Source of the DNA: Bradyrhizobium sp. CCBAU 51765 | Lineage (GTDB): Bacteria; Pseudomonadota; Alphaproteobacteria; Rhizobiales; Xanthobacteraceae | Direction of reading: 5' to 3' | Length of the DNA stretch: 64,000 bases | NCBI RefSeq assembly: GCF_015291725.1 | Contig: NZ_CP030038.1 | Span: forward strand, 7,863,001-7,927,000 | Part shown: piece after piece, positions 21,147 to 60,697 of the stretch | Layout: the number at the start of each line of letters is the position of its first letter | Position numbering within the stretch: the stretch's first letter is position 1 | Made by a program: the position numbers and the translations under genes | Notes under the pieces: generated by a model | Database searches by the model: none | Seen by the model: only the letters and a program-made list of their open reading frames with translations | Told to the model about the DNA's origin: nothing

Positions 21147-21611
21147 CTACTCCCTCACCCGCTGCTGCAAGCGCGCCATCGCAACGCCCTCGCGCGCGAG
21201 CTGATCGGCGCGCTCGTTCTCCGGGTGCCCGGCGTGGCCCTTGACCCAGTGCCAGCGGACCTCGTGCTGCTTCAGCGCGGCATCCAGGCGCTGCCATAGC
21301 TCCACATTCTTCACCGGCTTCTTGTCGGCGGTGCGCCAGCCGTTGCGCTTCCAGCCGAAGATCCAGCCCGTGATGCCCTGCCGGACATACTGACTGTCGG
21401 TGTAGAGATCGACCGTGCACGGCTTCTTCAGCGCCTCGAGGGCGGAGATCGCCGCCATCAGCTCCATCTGGTTGTTGGTGGTATGTCGCTCGCCGCCGTT
21501 CAGCTCCTTTTCCTTGTCGCCGAACTTCAGGATCGCGCCCCAGCCGCCCGGCCCGGGATTTCCCGAGCAGGCGCCGTCGGTATAGATCGTGACATTGGGG
21601 AGCTCGCTCAC
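21147..21611 (-). CDS. rnhA: Ribonuclease HI
   Basis: The 154-residue enzyme degrades RNA in RNA-DNA hybrids. The catalytic acidic residues are all present: D12 ([11 protein letters not shown]), E50 (NNQMELMAA), D72 (YTDSQYV) and D136 (NERADQLA), and the flexible-loop histidine is in KGHAGH. The GTG start overlaps the thrB stop (GTGA), so translation is coupled to thrB. It is the last gene of an ispH-thrB-rnhA operon typical of rhizobia. Confidence 0.95.
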
Positions 21612-22591
21612 GCCACCAGCCCCGACGGCGTCAGCCCATAGTCGCGCGCACTCGTCACGCTCTGGTGGAAGCGCAGCTTGCGGAAATATTCCAAGGGATC
21701 CTTCGGCCTGACCAGCGCGCCCGGCGGCACGTTGAGCCAGTCGACCAGCCGCGTCAGCAGGAAGCGGATCGCGGCGCCGCGTGCCAGCAGCGGCAGCGCC
21801 GCCTCTTCCGTCTCGGAGAGCTTGCGCACCCGGCCATAGGCGTTGAGAAAAGCGCGCGCCTTGGTGACGTTGAAGGAGTGATCCGGCTCGAAGCACCAGG
21901 CGTTGAGGCAGATCGCGACGTCATAGGCCAGCATGTCGTTGCAGGCGAAAGTGAAGTCGATGATGCCCGAGAGCTTGTCGCCGAGGAAGAAGACGTTGTC
22001 GTTGAAGAGGTCGGCGTGGATCACGCCCTCCGGCAGATTGGTCGGCCAGACGCCGCTCGAGAGATAATCGAGCTCGGCGGCAAGAAAATCGCGCAAGCCC
22101 GGCTGCACCTCGTCGGCACGGCCTGAAGCCGCCTCGAACAGCGGCCGCCAGCCGGAAACCGAGAGCGCATTGGTGCGCTTGATCGCAAAGTTCGCGCCCG
22201 CCAGATGCAGTTTCGCCAGCCCGTCGCCGACCCCGGCGCAATGCGTCGCGTTCGGCTTGCGCGGCCAGACGCCTTCGAGAAAGGTGATGATCGCCGCGGG
22301 CCGGCCTGCCAGCTCGCGCAGCGCCTCGCCGTCTTTCGCCTTCACAGGCAGCGGACAATTGACGCCGTGCTCGGCCAGATGCGTCATCAACGCGAGGAAG
22401 AACGGCAGATCGTTCTTCGCCACGCGCTTTTCGTAGAGCGTGAGAATGAACGAGCCCTTGCTGGTGTGCAGCAGGAAGTTGGAATTCTCGACACCCTCGG
22501 CGATGCCCTTGTAGGAGAGCAATTCGCCGAGATCATATTGTTTCAGGAAATCCGCAAGCTCGTCGGCGGCGACGTCGGTGTAGACCGCCAT
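21608..22591 (-). CDS. thrB: Homoserine kinase (type II, choline-kinase-like fold)
   Basis: The 327-residue enzyme phosphorylates homoserine in threonine synthesis. It belongs to the APH/choline-kinase-fold form found in alphaproteobacteria, not the GHMP form of enterobacteria. The catalytic loop [13 protein letters not shown] and the metal-binding [10 protein letters not shown] follow the kinase layout, and the N-terminal [16 protein letters not shown] matches known ThrB proteins. It starts 6 bases after the ispH stop and overlaps rnhA by 4 bases. Confidence 0.94.
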
Positions 22592-53115: not shown

Positions 53116-53364
53116 TCAAGCTGCTTCCGACATTGATTTCGCGCGCTGCTCGAGCACGCCGATCGTCGACACCAGGTTATCGCGTCGTGTGCGCAGGTTG
53201 AGCGCGAGCAGCGGATAGGTCGGCTGGTTCACGTCGAACACCCTGGCCCGAGCTTCCTCCTCGAGGATGTCGGTGTTCAGGAGCCGAACGCGCCACCACA
53301 AATCGGCGATCAATGCATCGAGCCGGAGTTCACCGGGAGCACCAGAACGGGACATTTTCTGCAT
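53116..53364 (-). CDS. Small hypothetical protein divergent from the sigma factor
   Basis: The 82-residue soluble protein is helical, with PGELRLDALIADLWWRVRLLN and TRRDNLVSTIGVLEQRAK segments. It has no signal peptide and no known motif. The frame stays open upstream, but the ATG at 53364 begins the plausible part. It is divergent from the rpoE-like gene, so it might share regulation, although I found no sigma-type site facing it. Confidence 0.55.
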   Translation of the reverse strand: MQKMSRSGAPGELRLDALIADLWWRVRLLNTDILEEEARARVFDVNQPTYPLLALNLRTRRDNLVSTIGVLEQRAKSMSEAA

Positions 53365-53501
53365 CACTTGCCTCAACCTGAAACGGCCTCTCGCCGAGAC
53401 CTTGGCTTGGCTCCTGACTGAGCAAGCGGAGTGCCAGGATGGGCGGGTGGCAGGGCATGCGCATCGGAACCAATCGGAACCAGCAATTGAGCATTTCACG
53501 G

Positions 53502-53527
53502 TGATCTGGGGCCTGTTCCCGCTCGTT
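53502..53527 (+). promoter_or_regulatory. Predicted ECF promoter upstream of the rpoE-chrR pair
   Basis: TGATCT at 53502-53507 and CGTT at 53524-53527 are separated by exactly 16 bases. Three more sites in this cluster show the same TGATCY-N16-CGTT layout. The predicted transcript start is near 53534, upstream of the first sigma gene, implying autoregulation. Confidence 0.65.
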
Positions 53528-53627
53528 CTCAGCCACGGAGATCGCTTGTCGAGGCGCTATGATCGCTGCTATCCGGGCTATAGATGTGCCAATCCGGGCT
53601 GAAGCTGGCGTGCCCCGGAGGGGTAAG

Positions 53628-54215
53628 GTGCGGCTTTTCATTGGTGCGAGCAAAGGGCCGAAGGCAAAGGTGGACTGGGCTGATTTGATCGGACGCGTTG
53701 CCTCTCACGGTGACCGGGCCGCTTTCAAGCGGCTATTCGAGCATTTCGCGCCCCGTATCAAGGGGCTGATGCAGAGAGCCGGTTGCAGCTCCGACGAGGC
53801 GGAAGAGATCGCCCAGAACGCCATGATTGCGGTGTGGCGGAAGGCGAGCCTTTTCGATCCTGCGACAGCGGGCGCAGCGGCCTGGATATTCACGATCGCG
53901 CGCAATCTGCGGATCGATTTATTCCGTCGCAGAGCGCGGGCAGACCGTCTGCGGGCCGATTCCGAGCTGCCCGATGCACCGGATCCGGCCGAACCGGCCG
54001 ATGCCGCCATTTCGCGAGTGCAAGACGCCGCACGGATCGAGGCGGCCATCAAGCAGCTCTCGACAGAGCAATCCATGGTGGTGAGGCTGTCGTTCATCGA
54101 GGAGAGGACGCACCCTGAAATCGCGAGCCTGCTCGGTATTCCGCTCGGAACGGTCAAGTCGCGGATCAGGCTGGCGATGAACCGGTTGAGAGACATATTG
54201 GACGAAGAAGCATGA
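53628..54215 (+). CDS. rpoE: ECF sigma factor, RpoE type (ChrR-paired)
   Basis: The 195-residue sigma factor has region 2 (FKRLFEHFAPRIKGLMQRAG, then DEAEEIAQNAMIAVWRKA) and region 4 (ERTHPEIASLLGIPLGTVKSR) of ECF factors. It overlaps the chrR anti-sigma gene by 4 bases (ATGA), the hallmark of ECF11 RpoE-ChrR pairs that respond to singlet oxygen in Rhodobacter. The GTG at 53628 has GGAGG at good spacing. An in-frame ATG at 53559 with a weaker GAGG is an alternative and would fit a shorter leader from the predicted promoter. Confidence 0.9.
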   Translation: MRLFIGASKGPKAKVDWADLIGRVASHGDRAAFKRLFEHFAPRIKGLMQRAGCSSDEAEEIAQNAMIAVWRKASLFDPATAGAAAWIFTIARNLRIDLFRRRARADRLRADSELPDAPDPAEPADAAISRVQDAARIEAAIKQLSTEQSMVVRLSFIEERTHPEIASLLGIPLGTVKSRIRLAMNRLRDILDEEA

Positions 54216-54853
54216 CGATCAGCCACCATCCGCCCGAAGATCTTCTGGCCGATTTCGCGGCCGGCAAGCTGGAAGAGGCTCATCAGCTGGTTGTAGGAGT
54301 GCATGTGGCAGGTTGCACGCGGTGCGCCCGCTTTGTGCAAGCCATAGAGCAGCTTGCGGGAGCAACGCTAGAGGATTTCGAGCCGGTGCCGATCGCGCCG
54401 GATGCGTTCGACCGTGTGATGTCGCGAATTGACAACTCTCCGGAAGATGAAGCGGCGCCCCCCCTCGCGTCCGCCACCGACCATGATCTTCCGCCGGCAC
54501 TGCGAAAATATCGCATCGGCAAGCGCCGGCGCATCGCGCCGGGCCTGAGCATGCGGCCAATCGAGCTTTCCGGTTCGGGCAAGGCGCGCGCCTTTCTGCT
54601 TCGGTCCGCACCAGGCTCGCGCATGCTTGAACACACGCACACCGGCACCGAACTGACCCTCGTCCTCGAGGGCAGCTTCAGTCACGAGGGCGGACGCTTT
54701 GGTCCTGGTGATTTTGATTACGGTGATGATGAGATCGAGCATCGTCCCGTCGTCGGCGACGAAGGCCCGTGTGTCTGCCTGGTCGCAATGACCGGCGGCC
54801 TGCGCATGAACGGCTTTCTCGGCCGACTGATCGGGCCGTTCGTACGACTTTGA
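54212..54853 (+). CDS. chrR: Anti-sigma factor ChrR (zinc, cupin)
   Basis: The 213-residue protein matches ChrR of Rhodobacter sphaeroides in length and in its metal ligands. The N-terminal anti-sigma domain has H6, H31, C35 and C38 (HVAGCTRC), and the C-terminal cupin has H141, H143, E147 (HTHTGTE) and H177. The N-terminal zinc site holds the sigma factor; the cupin is needed for the singlet-oxygen response in Rhodobacter. Translation is coupled to the sigma gene. Zinc binding is inferred from the ligands. Confidence 0.93.
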   Translation: MTISHHPPEDLLADFAAGKLEEAHQLVVGVHVAGCTRCARFVQAIEQLAGATLEDFEPVPIAPDAFDRVMSRIDNSPEDEAAPPLASATDHDLPPALRKYRIGKRRRIAPGLSMRPIELSGSGKARAFLLRSAPGSRMLEHTHTGTELTLVLEGSFSHEGGRFGPGDFDYGDDEIEHRPVVGDEGPCVCLVAMTGGLRMNGFLGRLIGPFVRL

Positions 54854-54878
54854 TTTTCTCAAGTCCTTCTCCCGGGGG

Positions 54879-54904
54879 TGATCCAGACATGCGCCCGGAG
54901 CGTT
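54879..54904 (+). promoter_or_regulatory. Predicted ECF promoter upstream of the second sigma gene
   Basis: TGATCC at 54879-54884, a 16-base spacer and CGTT at 54901-54904 match the shared motif. It lies 29 bases before the ATG of the second sigma gene, so RpoE could drive that gene, or the second sigma its own. Confidence 0.65.
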
Positions 54905-54932
54905 TCGAAACAAACGCAAGGGAGACACGGAC

Positions 54933-55517
54933 ATGGCCGGTTCAAGCCTGGCGAGTCAGGTGCCGAGCGAGAGGCTGCCTGAGCTATTGGCGCGCGTTTC
55001 CGCAGGCGAGACACGTGCCTTCGCAGAGCTCCATACGCTGACACGAGATCGGCTGCGCAGGATAGCGCTGGCCGTTGGAGCCTCGCCTCACGACGTCGAC
55101 GATATCCTCCAGGAAACCTTTCTGAAGATCTGGCGCAACGCTGACCGGTTCGATGCCGGACGCGCCCCGGCGATGGCCTGGATGTCCGCGGTTGTCCGGA
55201 ATGCCGCAATTGATCATCACCGAGCCAGAAGGCAGCCAACCTACGAACTGGACGAAGCGCTTTTGGTTCCGGCAGGAGCCGGCCCGTCTTCGATCGAGGA
55301 TTTCGACTACGCCAGTGCCGAACCGATTGCGCGCGGAGCATTGGCTCGTTTACCGGAAGATCGCCGCAGGCTGTTGGCTCTCGCTTATCTCGAAGGCGAG
55401 AGCCGCGCCAGCCTGTCACGGCGCTTCGGTGTGCCGGTCGGGACCATCAAGACCTGGCTACATCGAACCATTCTGGCGGTGCGCAAGGATTGCATTGCGG
55501 CATCGGCGGCGGCCTGA
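54933..55517 (+). CDS. Second ECF sigma factor
   Basis: The 194-residue sigma-70-family factor has region 2 (HDVDDILQETFLKIWRNADRF, then WMSAVVRNAAIDHHRARR) and region 4 (ESRASLSRRFGVPVGTIKTWLHR). It is more like SigK-type ECF factors than the RpoE copy 79 bases upstream. SigK-type factors usually have a membrane anti-sigma (RskA) next door; none is seen here. AGGGAG precedes the ATG. It is followed, 15 bases later, by a 100-residue orphan protein that may be its partner. Confidence 0.9.
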   Translation: MAGSSLASQVPSERLPELLARVSAGETRAFAELHTLTRDRLRRIALAVGASPHDVDDILQETFLKIWRNADRFDAGRAPAMAWMSAVVRNAAIDHHRARRQPTYELDEALLVPAGAGPSSIEDFDYASAEPIARGALARLPEDRRRLLALAYLEGESRASLSRRFGVPVGTIKTWLHRTILAVRKDCIAASAAA

Positions 55518-55532
55518 AGCCGGAGACCACGC

Positions 55533-55835
55533 ATGACCGCAGAGATCATCGCGTTTCCCAAGCAAGAGTGCGGGGACCGGCTCGTCTCTTCGATCGCACG
55601 GCTCGAAGCGCTGTCGATCGATGTCGAACGTGTCGGAGCCGACGATCCCGGAGCCTGCCTCGATCAGCTGCTTGCCGCCATGGAGCGCATGAGCGATCAA
55701 CTCGTCGACCTCGCGAGCCTCTTGCTCGACGAAGATACGAAGCTGCAGGCTCAAAGCGCATTCCGATCCTTGTCCGGCAGGATCGCGGAAACCAGGGAGA
55801 CGTTCGACCTGATCGGACGGCGAAGAGATATCTAA
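55533..55835 (+). CDS. 100-residue orphan protein following the second sigma gene
   Basis: The protein is helical and acidic, with MTAEIIAFPKQE at the start and a long amphipathic part (DQLLAAMERMSDQLVDLASLLL). It has two cysteines (C13, C42) but no zinc motif, no signal peptide and no membrane segment. It lies 15 bases after the second sigma gene on the same strand, so it is very likely co-transcribed. A role as a regulator or anti-sigma of that factor is possible but unproven. I do not recognise the family. Confidence 0.7.
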   Translation: MTAEIIAFPKQECGDRLVSSIARLEALSIDVERVGADDPGACLDQLLAAMERMSDQLVDLASLLLDEDTKLQAQSAFRSLSGRIAETRETFDLIGRRRDI

Positions 55836-55861
55836 CTCAGCCTGGCACGCTTGTTCTCGGC

Positions 55862-56263
55862 TCAGTGTACCAGTTTTCGAGCGACGATGAATCCGATCCA
55901 GGCACTGACACCGGCGAGAAACGATCCCCAGCAAACGTCCGCAAGTGTCAGCCCGGTCGACCAATTCCGAAGGGTCGCCTGATTGGTGAGATCATAGGTC
56001 GCATAGCTGAAGCAGCCGAGCATCAGGCCGGACGTGAAAGCGCGTAGCGCACTCCCGTCTTGCTGCGCGGGCAGCACCGCGAACCAGATCAAACCGATGG
56101 GATACAGCAAGTAAAATGCTGCAGCGGCCGCCAGATTGGGCTCGCCGCGCAACATGTCGCCCAGCACCGGCCGGTAAAGCCGTTCGACCATGATCTTGAG
56201 CCAGACCATGTCGATTGCAACGAAGGTCAAGGCCACCGAAAGATAGGTGAAGAGAAGATTCAT
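55862..56263 (-). CDS. DUF2177 family membrane protein
   Basis: The 133-residue protein has about four membrane segments and the DUF2177 patterns: TFVAIDMVWLKIMVERLYRP in the first loop and TYDLTNQATLRNWS in the third. The family is unstudied but often found near ChrR-type sigma clusters and CFA-type lipid genes. The ATG at 56263 is used. A site with the shared ECF motif lies on the same strand 56 bases upstream. Confidence 0.82.
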   Translation of the reverse strand: MNLLFTYLSVALTFVAIDMVWLKIMVERLYRPVLGDMLRGEPNLAAAAAFYLLYPIGLIWFAVLPAQQDGSALRAFTSGLMLGCFSYATYDLTNQATLRNWSTGLTLADVCWGSFLAGVSAWIGFIVARKLVH

Positions 56264-56318
56264 GTCCGCGTTCCCGTCCGATTGCATCTGCCCGGCTTGT
56301 CGAACCCGGCACCGGATT

Positions 56319-56344
56319 AACGACCGGCGAGCCACGCCGGATCA
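56319..56344 (-). promoter_or_regulatory. Predicted ECF promoter upstream of the DUF2177 gene
   Basis: On the minus strand TGATCC (56344-56339) is followed by 16 bases and CGTT (56322-56319), with TAATCC beyond. It is the only copy on this strand and faces the DUF2177 gene, about 56 bases before its ATG. Confidence 0.6.
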
Positions 56345-56392
56345 TATCCGCACACACGCGCCCGCTTGCGTGCAGTCAACAACCACCGGCCA

Positions 56393-57196
56393 TCAATGTG
56401 CGTGTTTCGGCGGCCACGGGAAGAATGCACTGGTACGTGCCTGATACTCCCGATAGCGGTCGCCGCGCGATTGCAGCATCTGCTCCTCGAGCGGGGGTAT
56501 CCCCGTCACATGCACGAGTATCCAGTACATGATCGCCGGCGCCGCCAGGCTGGCCCACCCCCAGGCGTATCCGGGCGAGAGCGCGATGACGGGGTAAGCC
56601 AGCCACCCCAGCCATTCGAAGAAATAGTTTGGATGACGCGACCATCGCCAAAGTCCGACATCGCAGACGAGACTGGCATTGGACGAGGAGAGCTTGAACC
56701 GGCGCAATTGCTGGTCCGCCAATGCTTCACCAGCGACAGCCACCAGAATGATGACGACTCCGGCATAGTCCTGCGGCCGCAATCCAGGCTCGGGGGCGTG
56801 GGCTGCGAGGAAGATGGCGAACGGCAGCGGCACCGAGACCAGCGCCTGCGATTGCAGGAACAGGAACATCCGGCGAGGGGCCGCCGCCCCCCACTGCCGC
56901 GCATAGTTCGCGTAGCGCGGATCGTCGATGCCCGCCGCGGCGCGGCGCGCAATGTGCGTTCCAAGTCGCACCGACCAAAGCAACGCGAGCCCTGCGACGA
57001 GCACTCGGCGTGACGGCGTGCCAGCGTCGAGGGGCCACAGGGCGGCGACCGCGCCGACGAGGCCGGTCGCGTAGGACCAGATCGCATCGACCCATCCGGA
57101 GTTTCCCGTGCGCTGCTGAACGACCCAGGCCAGTCCCATCAAGAGGCAAAGGGCCAGCGCAATGCCGACTATGGCCTGAACATGCACAAAAACCAT
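56393..57196 (-). CDS. DUF1295 family membrane protein (steroid 5-alpha-reductase-like)
   Basis: The 267-residue protein has about six to seven membrane segments and the typical C-terminal DUF1295 block: GLWRWSRHPNYFFEWLGWLAY, LVHVTGIPPLEEQMLQSRG and YREYQARTSAFFPWPP. Related enzymes are NADPH-dependent lipid double-bond reductases or methyltransferases. The histidine-proline-asparagine region and the LEEQ motif are conserved in the superfamily. It is divergent from the FAD-oxidoreductase gene. I found no ECF-type motif facing it. Confidence 0.85.
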   Translation of the reverse strand: MVFVHVQAIVGIALALCLLMGLAWVVQQRTGNSGWVDAIWSYATGLVGAVAALWPLDAGTPSRRVLVAGLALLWSVRLGTHIARRAAAGIDDPRYANYARQWGAAAPRRMFLFLQSQALVSVPLPFAIFLAAHAPEPGLRPQDYAGVVIILVAVAGEALADQQLRRFKLSSSNASLVCDVGLWRWSRHPNYFFEWLGWLAYPVIALSPGYAWGWASLAAPAIMYWILVHVTGIPPLEEQMLQSRGDRYREYQARTSAFFPWPPKHAH

Positions 57197-57283
57197 GCGT
57201 CACCAGAATTAACCTCTCCTCGATACGTCCGCTGCACGAGCCGGTTTCGCGTTCGGCCGCGGGTCGGCCGATGATCCGCAGGG

Positions 57284-57309
57284 TGATCCGCGCCATCTCG
57301 CCGAACGTT
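57284..57309 (+). promoter_or_regulatory. Predicted ECF promoter upstream of the FAD-DUF1365-CFA operon
   Basis: TGATCC at 57284-57289, 16 bases, then CGTT at 57306-57309. It lies 61 bases before the ATG at 57370. A second TGATCC at 57273 has no CGTT at the right distance. Confidence 0.65.
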
Positions 57310-57369: not shown

Positions 57370-58683
57370 ATGCGTTTGGCCGTGATCGGGACGGGAATTG
57401 CCGGCAATGCCGCCGCGTGGCTCCTGTCGAAACGCCATGCGGTGACGGTGTACGAGCGCGAGCTGCGCCCGGGCGGACATAGCCACACCGTTCGCGTCGA
57501 CTACGATGGCGAGGCCGTTGACGTCGATGTCGGCTTCATCGTGTTCAACGAGGCGAATTATCCGCAATTGACGGCACTGTTCGAGCGGCTGGGCGCGAGG
57601 ACCGTCGAGACGTGCATGAGCTTCGCCATGTCCGCCGATCATGGCCGGTTCGAATGGCGGGGTGGCGGCGAGACCTTTCTGCAGACTGTTTGCGGCCTGT
57701 TTGCACAACCGCGCAACCTCTCATCGCCATCCTATCTTCGCATGCTGGCTGAGGTCCTGCGATTCAACAGGCAGAGCGCGGCGGACTTGCGCGCCGGCCG
57801 GCTGCACAACCTGACGCTGGGCGAGTATATGCGCAAGGAATCGTTCGGGCCTCGCTTATTCTCCGATTATCTCGGACCGATGGGGGCGGCCATCTGGTCG
57901 TCCTCGTCGGCCGACATTCTGTCCTTTCCTGCGGAAAACTTTGTCGCCTTCTTCGACAACCACCGGCTGCTGCACCTGGACCGGCCGCGCTGGCGTACCG
58001 TAGAGGGTGGCAGCCGGCGCTATGTCGACAAGCTCACCGCTATGTTCAAGGACAACATTCGGCTAGGCTGCGCCGTGACGTCGGTCAACAGAGCGGAGCA
58101 TGGCGTGACGGTCCGCGACAGTCATGGCGGTGTGGAGACTTACGACGGCGTTGTGATGGCCTGCCACAGCGATCAGACCTTGGCGGCGCTGCCGGATGCC
58201 GACGCCCAGGAGCGGTCCATTCTCGGCGCGATCAGGTATGCCCCGAACACCGTCTATCTGCACCGTGATCGCAATCTCATGCCCAAGCGCCGCCAGGCAT
58301 GGGCATCCTGGAACTTCCTGCAATGGCCACGACAAACACCCGTCCAGAGCGACGTCGCGGTGACCTATTGGATGAACCGACTGCAGGGCATAGACGAAAG
58401 CAGGCCATTGTTCGTCAGTCTCAACCCGCCCTTCGAGCCGGCGGCCCATCTGACGTTTGGAAAATTCAGCTTCGCCCATCCGCAATACGACCTGGCAGCG
58501 TTCGCGGCACAGCGACGGCTCCCGGCAATTCAGGGGCGCCGCCGGACGTGGTTCTGCGGCGCCTGGACCGGCTACGGCTTTCACGAGGATGGCTTACAGT
58601 CAGGCATCTCCGTTGCCGAGGCGCTCGGCGGCGAAGTTCCATGGCGTCAGTCGGCCCCCTTGCTGGTCCAAGCAGCCGAGTAG
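57370..58683 (+). CDS. FAD-dependent amine-oxidase-like protein
   Basis: The 437-residue flavoprotein has the FAD loop GTGIAGNAAAWLLSKRH at residue 7 and the GG motif RPGGHSHTVRVDYDG. Later blocks are MGAAIWSSSSADILSFPAENF and the C-terminal FCGAWTGYGFHEDGLQSG. This is the COG2907-type protein that clusters with DUF1365 and CFA-synthase genes in many bacteria. In Rhodobacter a related protein of the RpoE regulon is tied to furan fatty acid formation; the same role here is an inference. The ATG at 57370 opens the FAD fold. The next gene starts 4 bases after its stop. Confidence 0.88.
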   Translation: MRLAVIGTGIAGNAAAWLLSKRHAVTVYERELRPGGHSHTVRVDYDGEAVDVDVGFIVFNEANYPQLTALFERLGARTVETCMSFAMSADHGRFEWRGGGETFLQTVCGLFAQPRNLSSPSYLRMLAEVLRFNRQSAADLRAGRLHNLTLGEYMRKESFGPRLFSDYLGPMGAAIWSSSSADILSFPAENFVAFFDNHRLLHLDRPRWRTVEGGSRRYVDKLTAMFKDNIRLGCAVTSVNRAEHGVTVRDSHGGVETYDGVVMACHSDQTLAALPDADAQERSILGAIRYAPNTVYLHRDRNLMPKRRQAWASWNFLQWPRQTPVQSDVAVTYWMNRLQGIDESRPLFVSLNPPFEPAAHLTFGKFSFAHPQYDLAAFAAQRRLPAIQGRRRTWFCGAWTGYGFHEDGLQSGISVAEALGGEVPWRQSAPLLVQAAE

Positions 58684-58687
58684 CACG

Positions 58688-59476
58688 ATGGTCCGAACGA
58701 ACCCGGCGAGAGCGGAGAATGCGATAGCGCCCGCCGCGCTCTACTGCGGAAAAGTGATGCACGCGCGATGGCGGCCCGTGCAGCACAGGTTCAGCTATCG
58801 CGTGATGAGCCTGCTGATCGATCTCGACCGGTTGAACGAAGCAGACCGTCAGTCCAGGCTGTTTGGCGTCAATCGAGCAGCACTCTTCAGCTTCCACGAG
58901 CGCGATCACGGTGAAGGCAAGGGCCCGTGCCTCGGCCGGTACGTCCGAGGACTGGCAGCGGAGCGCGGCATCGATCTCTCTGGAGGCCGCATTCTCCTTC
59001 TCTGTTATCCCCGGGTTCTGGGCTACGCGTTCAACCCGCTTTCAGTCTATTTCTGCTATGGCGCGTCCGGCGATCTCGAGCTGACGATCTACGAGGTCCG
59101 CAACACCTTCGGAGAGATGCATTCCTACATCCTGCCCGTGCAAGATGCGCGACCAGGCTGTACAATACGACAAAGCCAGGCGAAGGAGTTTTACGTTTCA
59201 CCTTTCATGGAGATGGAGACGCATTACCGCTTCAGCATTTCTCCGCCCGAGCAAGATGTGAAGGTCAGAATCCTGCAGGCAAGCGAGCAGGGCGCGATGT
59301 TTGCGGCAGCGTTCCGCGGACGGCGCCACCCTCTGACCAGCCCCTCGCTATTGGCGACGCTGTTCGGTCTGCCCTTCCTGACTTTCAAGGTGATCGCAGC
59401 CATCCACTGGGAAGCGATGCGGCTTTGGCTGAAAGGTGCTCCGTACGTGCGCCGTTTGAAACAACGCGAGATTTGA
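58688..59476 (+). CDS. DUF1365 family protein
   Basis: The 262-residue protein has the DUF1365 marks: LYCGKVMHARWRPVQHRFSY, then LLCYPRVLGYAFNPLSVYFC and KEFYVSPFMEMETHYRFSI. The family has no established reaction but is nearly always between an FAD-oxidoreductase and a CFA-synthase-like methyltransferase. It starts 4 bases after the upstream stop and ends 3 bases before the next start, so the three genes form a tight operon. Confidence 0.9.
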   Translation: MVRTNPARAENAIAPAALYCGKVMHARWRPVQHRFSYRVMSLLIDLDRLNEADRQSRLFGVNRAALFSFHERDHGEGKGPCLGRYVRGLAAERGIDLSGGRILLLCYPRVLGYAFNPLSVYFCYGASGDLELTIYEVRNTFGEMHSYILPVQDARPGCTIRQSQAKEFYVSPFMEMETHYRFSISPPEQDVKVRILQASEQGAMFAAAFRGRRHPLTSPSLLATLFGLPFLTFKVIAAIHWEAMRLWLKGAPYVRRLKQREI

Positions 59477-59479
59477 ACC

Positions 59480-60697
59480 ATGGACCTCGCAGCCACGCGT
59501 CAGGCCGCTCAATTCGATGGTGTCCCATTCCTTGCCCGACTGGCACTGCGCCTTGCATCGCAGATCAGGTACGGCACGGTTCATGTGCGCCTTCCCGACC
59601 AGAGAACCGTCGCGTTGCGCGGTCGGCTTCCGGGTCCGTCGGCCACGATAGAACTCAACAATTACCGGTTCGCGCGCAGCCTCGTCATGGGTGGCGACAT
59701 CGGCATGGCCGAGGCTTACATTCGAGGCGATTGGACCACGCCCGATCTCACCCAGCTTCTCTACGTGTTCTGTCTCAACGAAGAGCTGGTCGACAGTGCC
59801 TTTGCCGGGAACATGCTGGTCCGGTTCTGCCGGCGGGTGCTTCATCGACTGCGCCGGAACACAAGACAGGGGTCGAGGCACAACATCCATTCGCATTACG
59901 ATCTCGGAAACGAGTTCTTCGCTGCGTGGCTCGATTCGAGCATGACCTACTCGTCGGCTCTGTTCCCGGCCGAGACAGCCGACCTGCCCGCTGCTCAACA
60001 TCACAAATACGAACAACTGGCGAAAGCCATCGAATTGCAGCCCGGTCAGAGCGTGCTCGAGATCGGGTGCGGTTGGGGCGGCTTTGCCGAGTTTGCCGCG
60101 AAGACTTACGGCGCGAGCGTGGTGGCCCTGACCATCAGCAAGGAGCAGCACGAATTTGCCCGTCGACGAATCCACGAAGCCGGGCTCGCCGAAAAGGTCC
60201 AGGTCCGGTTGCAGGATTATCGCGACCAGGAAGGTCATTTCGACCGCATCGTCTCAATCGAGATGATCGAGGCCGTCGGCGAGCAATTCTGGCCAGCCTA
60301 CTTCAATCAGCTGAACCGGCGGCTCAAGCCGGGCGGTCTAGCAGGCATCCAGGCCATCACTGTCCGCGACGAGCTCTTTGACAGCTATCGGCAGCGCGTG
60401 GACTTCATCCAGAGGTACATCTTTCCGGGAGGGATGCTCCCCTCGACGAACATCCTGCGCTCGCTCGGCGAACGCTTCGAGGTGCCTGTCATTCGCGAGC
60501 GCGTGTTTGGACAGGACTATGCGAAGACGATCGCACTCTGGCGCGAGAACTTCGGCAGGGCATGGAGCGACCTGACCTCGCTCGGGTTCGACGAGCCCTT
60601 CCGCCGGCTGTGGGAATATTATCTGTGCTACTGCGAGGCGGGGTTCAGGGCCGGAAAGATCGACGTGGGGCAGTTGATATTTGCCCGTCAAAGCTGA
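59480..60697 (+). CDS. cfa: Cyclopropane-fatty-acid synthase-like methyltransferase
   Basis: The 405-residue SAM-dependent enzyme has the SAM loop VLEIGCGWGG at residues 192-201, the substrate-facing HYDLGNEFF at 139-147, and MTYSSALF, all conserved in CFA synthases. It would methylate double bonds of phospholipid acyl chains, giving cyclopropane or branched methyl products; in some RpoE-ChrR regulons the homologue takes part in furan-fatty-acid synthesis. It closes the operon with the DUF1365 and FAD-enzyme genes. No clear terminator follows; a palindromic repeat is about 50 bases downstream. Confidence 0.92.
   Translation: MDLAATRQAAQFDGVPFLARLALRLASQIRYGTVHVRLPDQRTVALRGRLPGPSATIELNNYRFARSLVMGGDIGMAEAYIRGDWTTPDLTQLLYVFCLNEELVDSAFAGNMLVRFCRRVLHRLRRNTRQGSRHNIHSHYDLGNEFFAAWLDSSMTYSSALFPAETADLPAAQHHKYEQLAKAIELQPGQSVLEIGCGWGGFAEFAAKTYGASVVALTISKEQHEFARRRIHEAGLAEKVQVRLQDYRDQEGHFDRIVSIEMIEAVGEQFWPAYFNQLNRRLKPGGLAGIQAITVRDELFDSYRQRVDFIQRYIFPGGMLPSTNILRSLGERFEVPVIRERVFGQDYAKTIALWRENFGRAWSDLTSLGFDEPFRRLWEYYLCYCEAGFRAGKIDVGQLIFARQS

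Follow-up and report, generated by a model that had tools for sequence, protein, structure and literature searches.

Four ECF11-type promoter sites in a Bradyrhizobium gene cluster probably place a second ECF sigma factor and a furan-fatty-acid-like operon under a ChrR-held sigma factor

In a 64,000-nucleotide stretch of the Bradyrhizobium sp. CCBAU 51765 genome (the window, to which all coordinates refer), a sigma factor gene (sigma 1) and the chrR anti-sigma gene that it overlaps are followed by a second extracytoplasmic function (ECF) sigma factor gene (sigma 2), and the motif TGATCY-N16-CGTT occurs four times in the cluster. We read these sites, with a probability of roughly 0.9, as promoters recognized by the ChrR-held sigma 1, which would drive its own operon, sigma 2, a DUF2177 gene and an operon that looks like one for furan-fatty-acid synthesis. 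What was directly observed comprises the sites themselves, the fact that they are conserved at these genes but not at neighboring ones, and the assignment of ChrR. In the proposed mechanism, sigma 1, an ECF11-type factor, would be kept inactive by ChrR until released in response to singlet oxygen or organic peroxide; the released factor would transcribe its own operon, giving autoregulation, and also sigma 2 with the small protein gene behind it, DUF2177 and the putative furan-fatty-acid operon. Sigma 2 would then form a second tier limited by its transcription rather than by an anti-sigma factor.

A sequence-only reading of this DNA had proposed the four sites, and all are exact, each with a spacer of 16 bases: TGATCT-N16-CGTT at 53502-53527 (plus strand) for the sigma 1-chrR operon, and TGATCC-N16-CGTT at 54879-54904 (plus) for sigma 2, at 56319-56344 (minus) for DUF2177 and at 57284-57309 (plus) for the operon of flavin adenine dinucleotide (FAD) protein, DUF1365 and cyclopropane-fatty-acid-synthase-like (CFA) genes. 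The claimed position just upstream of each gene holds as well, since the next gene start follows the end of the site by 28 nucleotides (nt) for sigma 2, 55 nt for DUF2177, 60 nt for the FAD gene and approximately 31 nt for sigma 1 when measured to its ATG at 53559; the true start of sigma 1 is uncertain (a GTG at 53610 is the alternative). At 57272-57289 the TGATCC box occurs twice, 12 bases apart, and CGTT follows at 16 bases after the second copy only. The window holds 5 exact matches, compared to 0.20 expected from 100 whole-window dinucleotide shuffles (standard deviation 0.47, largest value 3). The fifth, at 21879 (plus), is probably a chance match, because it lies antisense inside an open reading frame (ORF) at 21608-22591 (minus), homoserine-kinase-like by eye, and because it scored 15.1, below the 5% quantile of training sites (19.2), with a matrix built from 89 non-redundant sites (extended consensus G-TGATCC-R-N14-T-CGTT-T). 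Finding four sites in 3.8 kb, where 0.022 would be expected, has a Poisson P of ~1e-8, or ~2e-5 when all such stretches of the genome are allowed for; since this region was picked after the fact, we took conservation as the real test.

Matches to chrR were found in 90/265 genomes of the genus (E<=1e-15) and to sigma 2 in 66/265 (E<=1e-40); across the family, sigma 2 was matched in only 8/149 sampled genomes (E<=1e-30). We fetched 95 chrR loci beside the window, annotated them by tblastn and scanned the upstream regions; the counts that follow include the window. TGATCY-N16-CGTW was present upstream of sigma 1 in 90/95 regions (locus L185 has no sigma 1 and was left out), of sigma 2 in all 67 (a number that takes in L185, whose broken genes missed the E<=1e-40 threshold), of DUF2177 in 54/58 and of the FAD gene in 51/52. 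At other spacings between 8 and 24, the boxes were found in 11/1520, 14/1072, 1/928 and 4/832 cases, respectively (30/4352 in total), while control regions upstream of DUF1295, DUF1365 and CFA carried TGATCY-N16-CGTW in 1/52, 0/33 and 0/35 cases. Mean pairwise identity was 0.96-1.00 in the -35 and -10 boxes and 0.36-0.44 in the spacer, and a spacer so much more divergent than the boxes points to selection acting to preserve the latter.

Several observations weigh against this interpretation. The sigma 1 site was missed in L186-L190, where ChrR is only 29-33% identical and a CGTA site lies ~1 kb further upstream, preceding a folE-like gene in L186; the DUF2177 site was missed in L178, L186, L187 and L188, and the FAD site in L176, where it is one base off. 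Related loci share ancestry, so that the counts are non-independent samples, and the -10 sequence CGTT in the window departs from the published ECF11 CGTA. Furthermore, in the whole-genome scan that the sequence-only reading had put forward, N16 is not favored over the other spacings, with 49 matches in the 8.4-Mb genome against a mean of 53.3 (799 matches over the 15 spacings N10-N24), so the bare pattern scan is mostly noise. Outside the cluster there are 45 sites, and the matrix score of a true site is reached by just one, which precedes folE. The scan thus gives no convincing extra regulon member in this genome. The same lack of excess would favor the explanation that the four matches are chance, but we consider this extremely improbable, given the local clustering and, above all, the phylogenetic footprint, which already refutes it.

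The identity of the regulator points in the same direction as the footprint. Sigma 1 (53559-54215, plus) contains only sigma regions 2 and 4 (Sigma70_r2 and r4 in Pfam) and overlaps the start of chrR (54212-54853, plus), which lies in the same operon and encodes a zinc anti-sigma factor with an N-terminal anti-sigma domain and a ChrR cupin domain (PF12973). ChrR scored 180.1 bits against TIGR02451 (cutoff 124.5) and 188.5 against the equivalog NF051881, under its cutoff of 300, and its best solved relative is Rhodobacter sphaeroides ChrR (2z2s_B, E=1.9e-31). H31, C35, C38 and the cupin H-x-H-x3-E...H match that protein in the alignment, and both the zinc-ligand positions, which we take to be His6, His31, Cys35 and Cys38, and the cupin-ligand positions (numbered from PMC6852236) are retained. 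The TGATC -35 with N16 spacing is that of ECF11 promoters; the -10 that is usual for the group, though not defining, is CGTA, and all four window sites have CGTT. On these sequence features we assign sigma 1-ChrR as an ECF11 (RpoE-ChrR) system of Bradyrhizobium. The footprint, the ChrR assignment and the published ECF11 promoters all agree with the earlier proposal of an ECF -35/-10 pair defining an RpoE-ChrR regulon that is autoregulated and has sigma 2 among its predicted targets.

Comparisons with the literature here and below draw on parts of the cited papers. Pseudomonas syringae ECF11 promoters derived from chromatin immunoprecipitation sequencing have TGATCC-N16-CGTA (PMC5507510), Shewanella has TGATCC with CGTATT or CGTAAT and mapped transcript starts (PMC4336711), and the Vibrio cholerae SigE-ChrR promoter is TGATC-N16-18-CGTAW (PMC5241685). 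The general stress factor EcfG, whose consensus GGAAC-N16-CGTT has the same -10 and the same spacing as our sites (PMC7083833), could in principle read them instead; however, their -35 is a nearly invariant TGATC in place of GGAAC, and the sites agree with the published ECF11 sites, making this very unlikely.

The sigma 1-ChrR cluster resembles R. sphaeroides sigmaE-ChrR, also ECF11, in its sigma-ChrR pair and ChrR architecture, and in having a predicted core regulon with furan-fatty-acid genes and a predicted sigma cascade, although the second tier there is RpoHII, a heat-shock-type sigma, and here an ECF factor (PMC6852236). It shares with P. syringae PSPTO_1043/1042 the TGATCC-N16 spacing, a site upstream of the sigma factor's own gene, and orthologues of the FAD protein, RSP_1090 and cfa, whereas the -10 in that species is CGTA and no second ECF is among the promoters of Table 3 of that study (PMC5507510). 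Shewanella oneidensis RpoE2-ChrR and V. cholerae SigE-ChrR likewise have a TGATC -35 and similar spacing, and their targets include a cfa operon and photolyase; their -10 is again CGTA, in contrast to CGTT here, and a second ECF is not among the targets described in the portions of those reports consulted (PMC4336711, PMC5241685).

The loci that have no sigma 2 next to chrR bear on which sigma factor reads the sites. In all 23 sigma 1-chrR loci of this kind (L109, L134, L135 and L137-L156) the sigma 1 site is kept, and for 20 of the 23 the genome gave no sigma 2 match at all; the other three genomes (G294, G196 and G386) have a match elsewhere. Sites are thus kept where sigma 2 has no match, so that sigma 2 is not required, and sigma 1 is enough to explain them. 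It is nonetheless conceivable, if unlikely, that sigma 2 or both factors read TGATCY-N16-CGTT, in which case the circuit would act as an amplifier working through shared promoters and not as a relay feeding another regulon. Sigma 2 has no recognizable anti-sigma factor and itself stands behind such a site, and Thalassospira ECF genes that are 35-37% identical to it have TGATCA-N16-CGTA upstream in 10/10 Thalassospira loci among the 80 loci retained from the matches listed; on the other side, the same sites persist in the 20 loci whose genomes gave no sigma 2 match, and in Thalassospira the site may reflect either control by ECF11 or self-regulation by the ECF gene that carries it. Thalassospira loci with this sequence number at least 10 (L395, L398, L400-L402, L406, L409-L411 and L414), and in L395 the ECF gene is followed by an RskA-like gene, by eye.

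Sigma 1 remains the preferred reader, and sigma 2 its predicted target. Sigma 2 (54933-55517, plus; Sigma70_r2 and r4_2 only) is ~27% identical to sigma 1 and is thus no recent copy of it; its nearest named relatives are in Bradyrhizobium, at 99% in Bradyrhizobium sp. RP6 and 57% in BTAi1. It lies downstream of chrR in 66/95 fetched loci as well as the window, and in the fetched loci it is 474-867 nt away from where the chrR match begins. Because it has its own TGATCY-N16-CGTW site each time, sigma 2 is probably transcribed by sigma 1 as a unit of its own. On the most parsimonious view of the tree, sigma 2 was gained once, after the split from the L137-L156 clade, and lost in L109, L134 and L135. 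No anti-sigma factor was recognizable near it, and it reached the cutoff of none of the specific ECF models within the 25 NCBIfam matches listed, so that a SigK-like label is loose. Behind it, a 100-residue helical protein (55533-55835, plus) was matched in 31/95 fetched loci; it had no match in Pfam, NCBIfam or PHROGs, and its model of three helices is of low confidence (mean predicted local distance difference test score 68, predicted template modeling score 0.41). We considered this protein as a candidate anti-sigma factor for sigma 2, but the model is not strong enough to support a fold search. Our home-made gene finder is weak and missed sigma 2, and its gene calls served as a guide only. 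Among the literature matches listed, none described a second ECF under ECF11 control in Bradyrhizobium, most subscription literature being outside the search.

The -10 sequence also differs among the relatives. At the four promoter classes, 84/94 of the relatives' loci have CGTT only, 9 have CGTA only and L180 has both, the CGTA of L186-L190 being assigned by hand from the upstream site. When all sites in the 95 fetched loci were counted, the 86 CGTT-type loci contained 280 CGTT and 10 CGTA sites (of 290), and the CGTA-type loci 18 CGTA and no CGTT. Eight of those 10 CGTA sites, spread over eight loci, sit on the minus strand at ~950 nt ahead of chrR, and the gene behind them is MHYT-GGDEF where it was read (L112 and L126). 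In addition, L249 and L250 (genomes G175 and G161) carry TGATCC-N16-CGTA at a second lipid cluster, while the single chrR locus in those genomes has CGTT sites and a CGTT-type sigma 1; the DUF2177, FAD and DUF1295 genes of this second cluster are at 47-56% identity. A complete, concerted switch of the -10 at every site was rejected on the basis of the 10/290 CGTA sites and those of L249 and L250.

Within sigma 1, the residue after Ile-Asp is Arg in 9/9 CGTA loci and in 1/85 CGTT loci (L111), and position 76 of P0002 is Gly in 85/85 CGTT loci and Thr, Ala or Ser in CGTA loci; many further columns also differ between the two types. A FastTree phylogeny of 37/95 sigma 1 proteins, rooted by choice on L186-L190, gives the CGTA loci a basal position, as would be expected if the change occurred once, and a single event of this kind cannot reveal which sigma 1 residue matters. 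A more ambitious reading, to which we give only tentative credit at somewhat less than even odds, is a two-tier ECF-to-ECF relay in which sigma 2, without an anti-sigma factor and governed solely by the ECF11 promoter, would read a separate regulon, with the -10 of the regulon core having changed from CGTA to CGTT in the same lineage alongside changes in sigma 1 region 2 (loss of Arg after Ile-Asp and gain of Gly at position 76 of P0002). We had placed this a little closer to even before the CGTA exceptions (10/290 sites; L249 and L250) were taken into account.

For this strain the predicted regulon stays at four operons. Among the 49 genome sites, only the four cluster sites, which were in the training set, and the one upstream of folE (G000:C1:3281897) have a matrix score >20. 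TGATCY-N16-CGTW preceded this candidate fifth member in 10/21 Bradyrhizobium genomes with chrR vs 1/9 without (Fisher one-sided P=0.06; 30 genomes in all, G128, of another genus, having given no locus and standing outside the count). Further sites in relatives precede a folE-like gene (L100, L109, L134 and L186; Pfam-confirmed in L109), a TspO-like gene (L128, L132, L191 and probably L117; Pfam-confirmed in L132), an MHYT-GGDEF gene (L112 and L126; Pfam-confirmed in L112), a fasciclin gene (L134, Pfam-confirmed) and a CheY-like gene (L109, by eye). No photolyase was recognized behind the 49 genome sites, no search aimed at photolyase having been made in this genome; in 4/9 sister-clade loci (L099, L108, L117 and L126) a photolyase-related gene closely follows sigma 2, confirmed as DPRP in L108.

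Of the ECF11 core regulon, which comprises rpoE-chrR, the FAD protein, an RSP_1090-type protein, cfa and photolyase, the first four are present here with sites. The FAD amine-oxidase-like gene (57370-58683, plus; PF01593), the DUF1365 gene (58688-59476, plus; PF07103) and the cyclopropane-synthase-like methyltransferase gene (59480-60697, plus; PF02353, ufaM/cfa-like) look like a furan-fatty-acid operon ufaD-ufaO-ufaM by their apparent gene order. The ufaD link comes from the order of RPA2571-2569, and the ufaO link from order together with RSP1090/UfaO, which we take to be a DUF1365 protein. The R. palustris homologues of ufaM-ufaO-ufaD are RPA2569-2571, whose numbering suggests the same order as FAD-DUF1365-CFA, and R. 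sphaeroides expressing RPA2571, 2570 and 2569 together produces a furan fatty acid (PMC7380195). Since furan-fatty-acid synthesis genes are needed for ChrR turnover in R. sphaeroides (PMC6852236), a positive feedback is plausible in this cluster. The DUF2177 membrane protein gene lies at 55862-56263 (minus; PF09945). Divergent from sigma 1, an ORF at 53116-53499 (minus) adjoins the sigma 1 promoter; it has no Pfam match and is matched at 61-100% identity in many fetched loci of the window clade.

A second motif, GAAACC-N15-CGTA, lies at 57224-57248 (minus), where it immediately precedes DUF1295 and faces away from the adjacent FAD promoter. Sigma 2 might read this other promoter type, GAAAC-N16-CGTA, rather than the ECF11 sites: the motif (N15-17) is conserved upstream of DUF1295 in 31 window-clade regions, window included, and in 27/30 loci (L221-L250) from genomes that have sigma 2 with DUF1295 located elsewhere, and it is absent at DUF1295 in L251 (G350), a genome without sigma 2. 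Yet it is present at DUF1295 in L252 and L253 and in 19/20 of the loci L261-L280, and among the 18 DUF1295 loci from genomes without chrR and sigma 2 matches (16/20 of L261-L280 plus L252 and L253) it occurs in 17. We therefore rejected sigma 2 as the reader, an idea that now appears improbable; judging from this distribution, the reader is more likely to be a factor that occurs throughout the genus. A SigK-like ECF that is followed by what looks, by eye, like an RskA-like gene was also rejected, as no such site was found upstream of it in the 24 loci examined. In L034 (2013-2345) and L282 (1070-1500), GAAACC-N14-CGTA precedes another ECF, one that is followed by a cupin-type protein and is divergent from a sigma-2-like ECF (~41% identical); this other ECF may be a relative of whichever factor reads the DUF1295 motif.

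What is new here is a -10 base changed across most of a regulon, together with a second ECF as a predicted target; the type of circuit is known. The relay principle in particular is known from R. sphaeroides, where sigmaE activates RpoHII as a further sigma factor, and an ECF-to-ECF relay would be a parallel of that RpoE-to-RpoHII cascade. In other respects the cluster extends a known regulon. Bradyrhizobium, a large genus with soil-living and symbiotic members, would offer an ECF-to-ECF cascade that can be put to the test. It would also provide a natural example of a single-base change that a sigma factor and the majority of its promoters seem to have undergone jointly, which would be useful for locating the sigma residue that reads that base.

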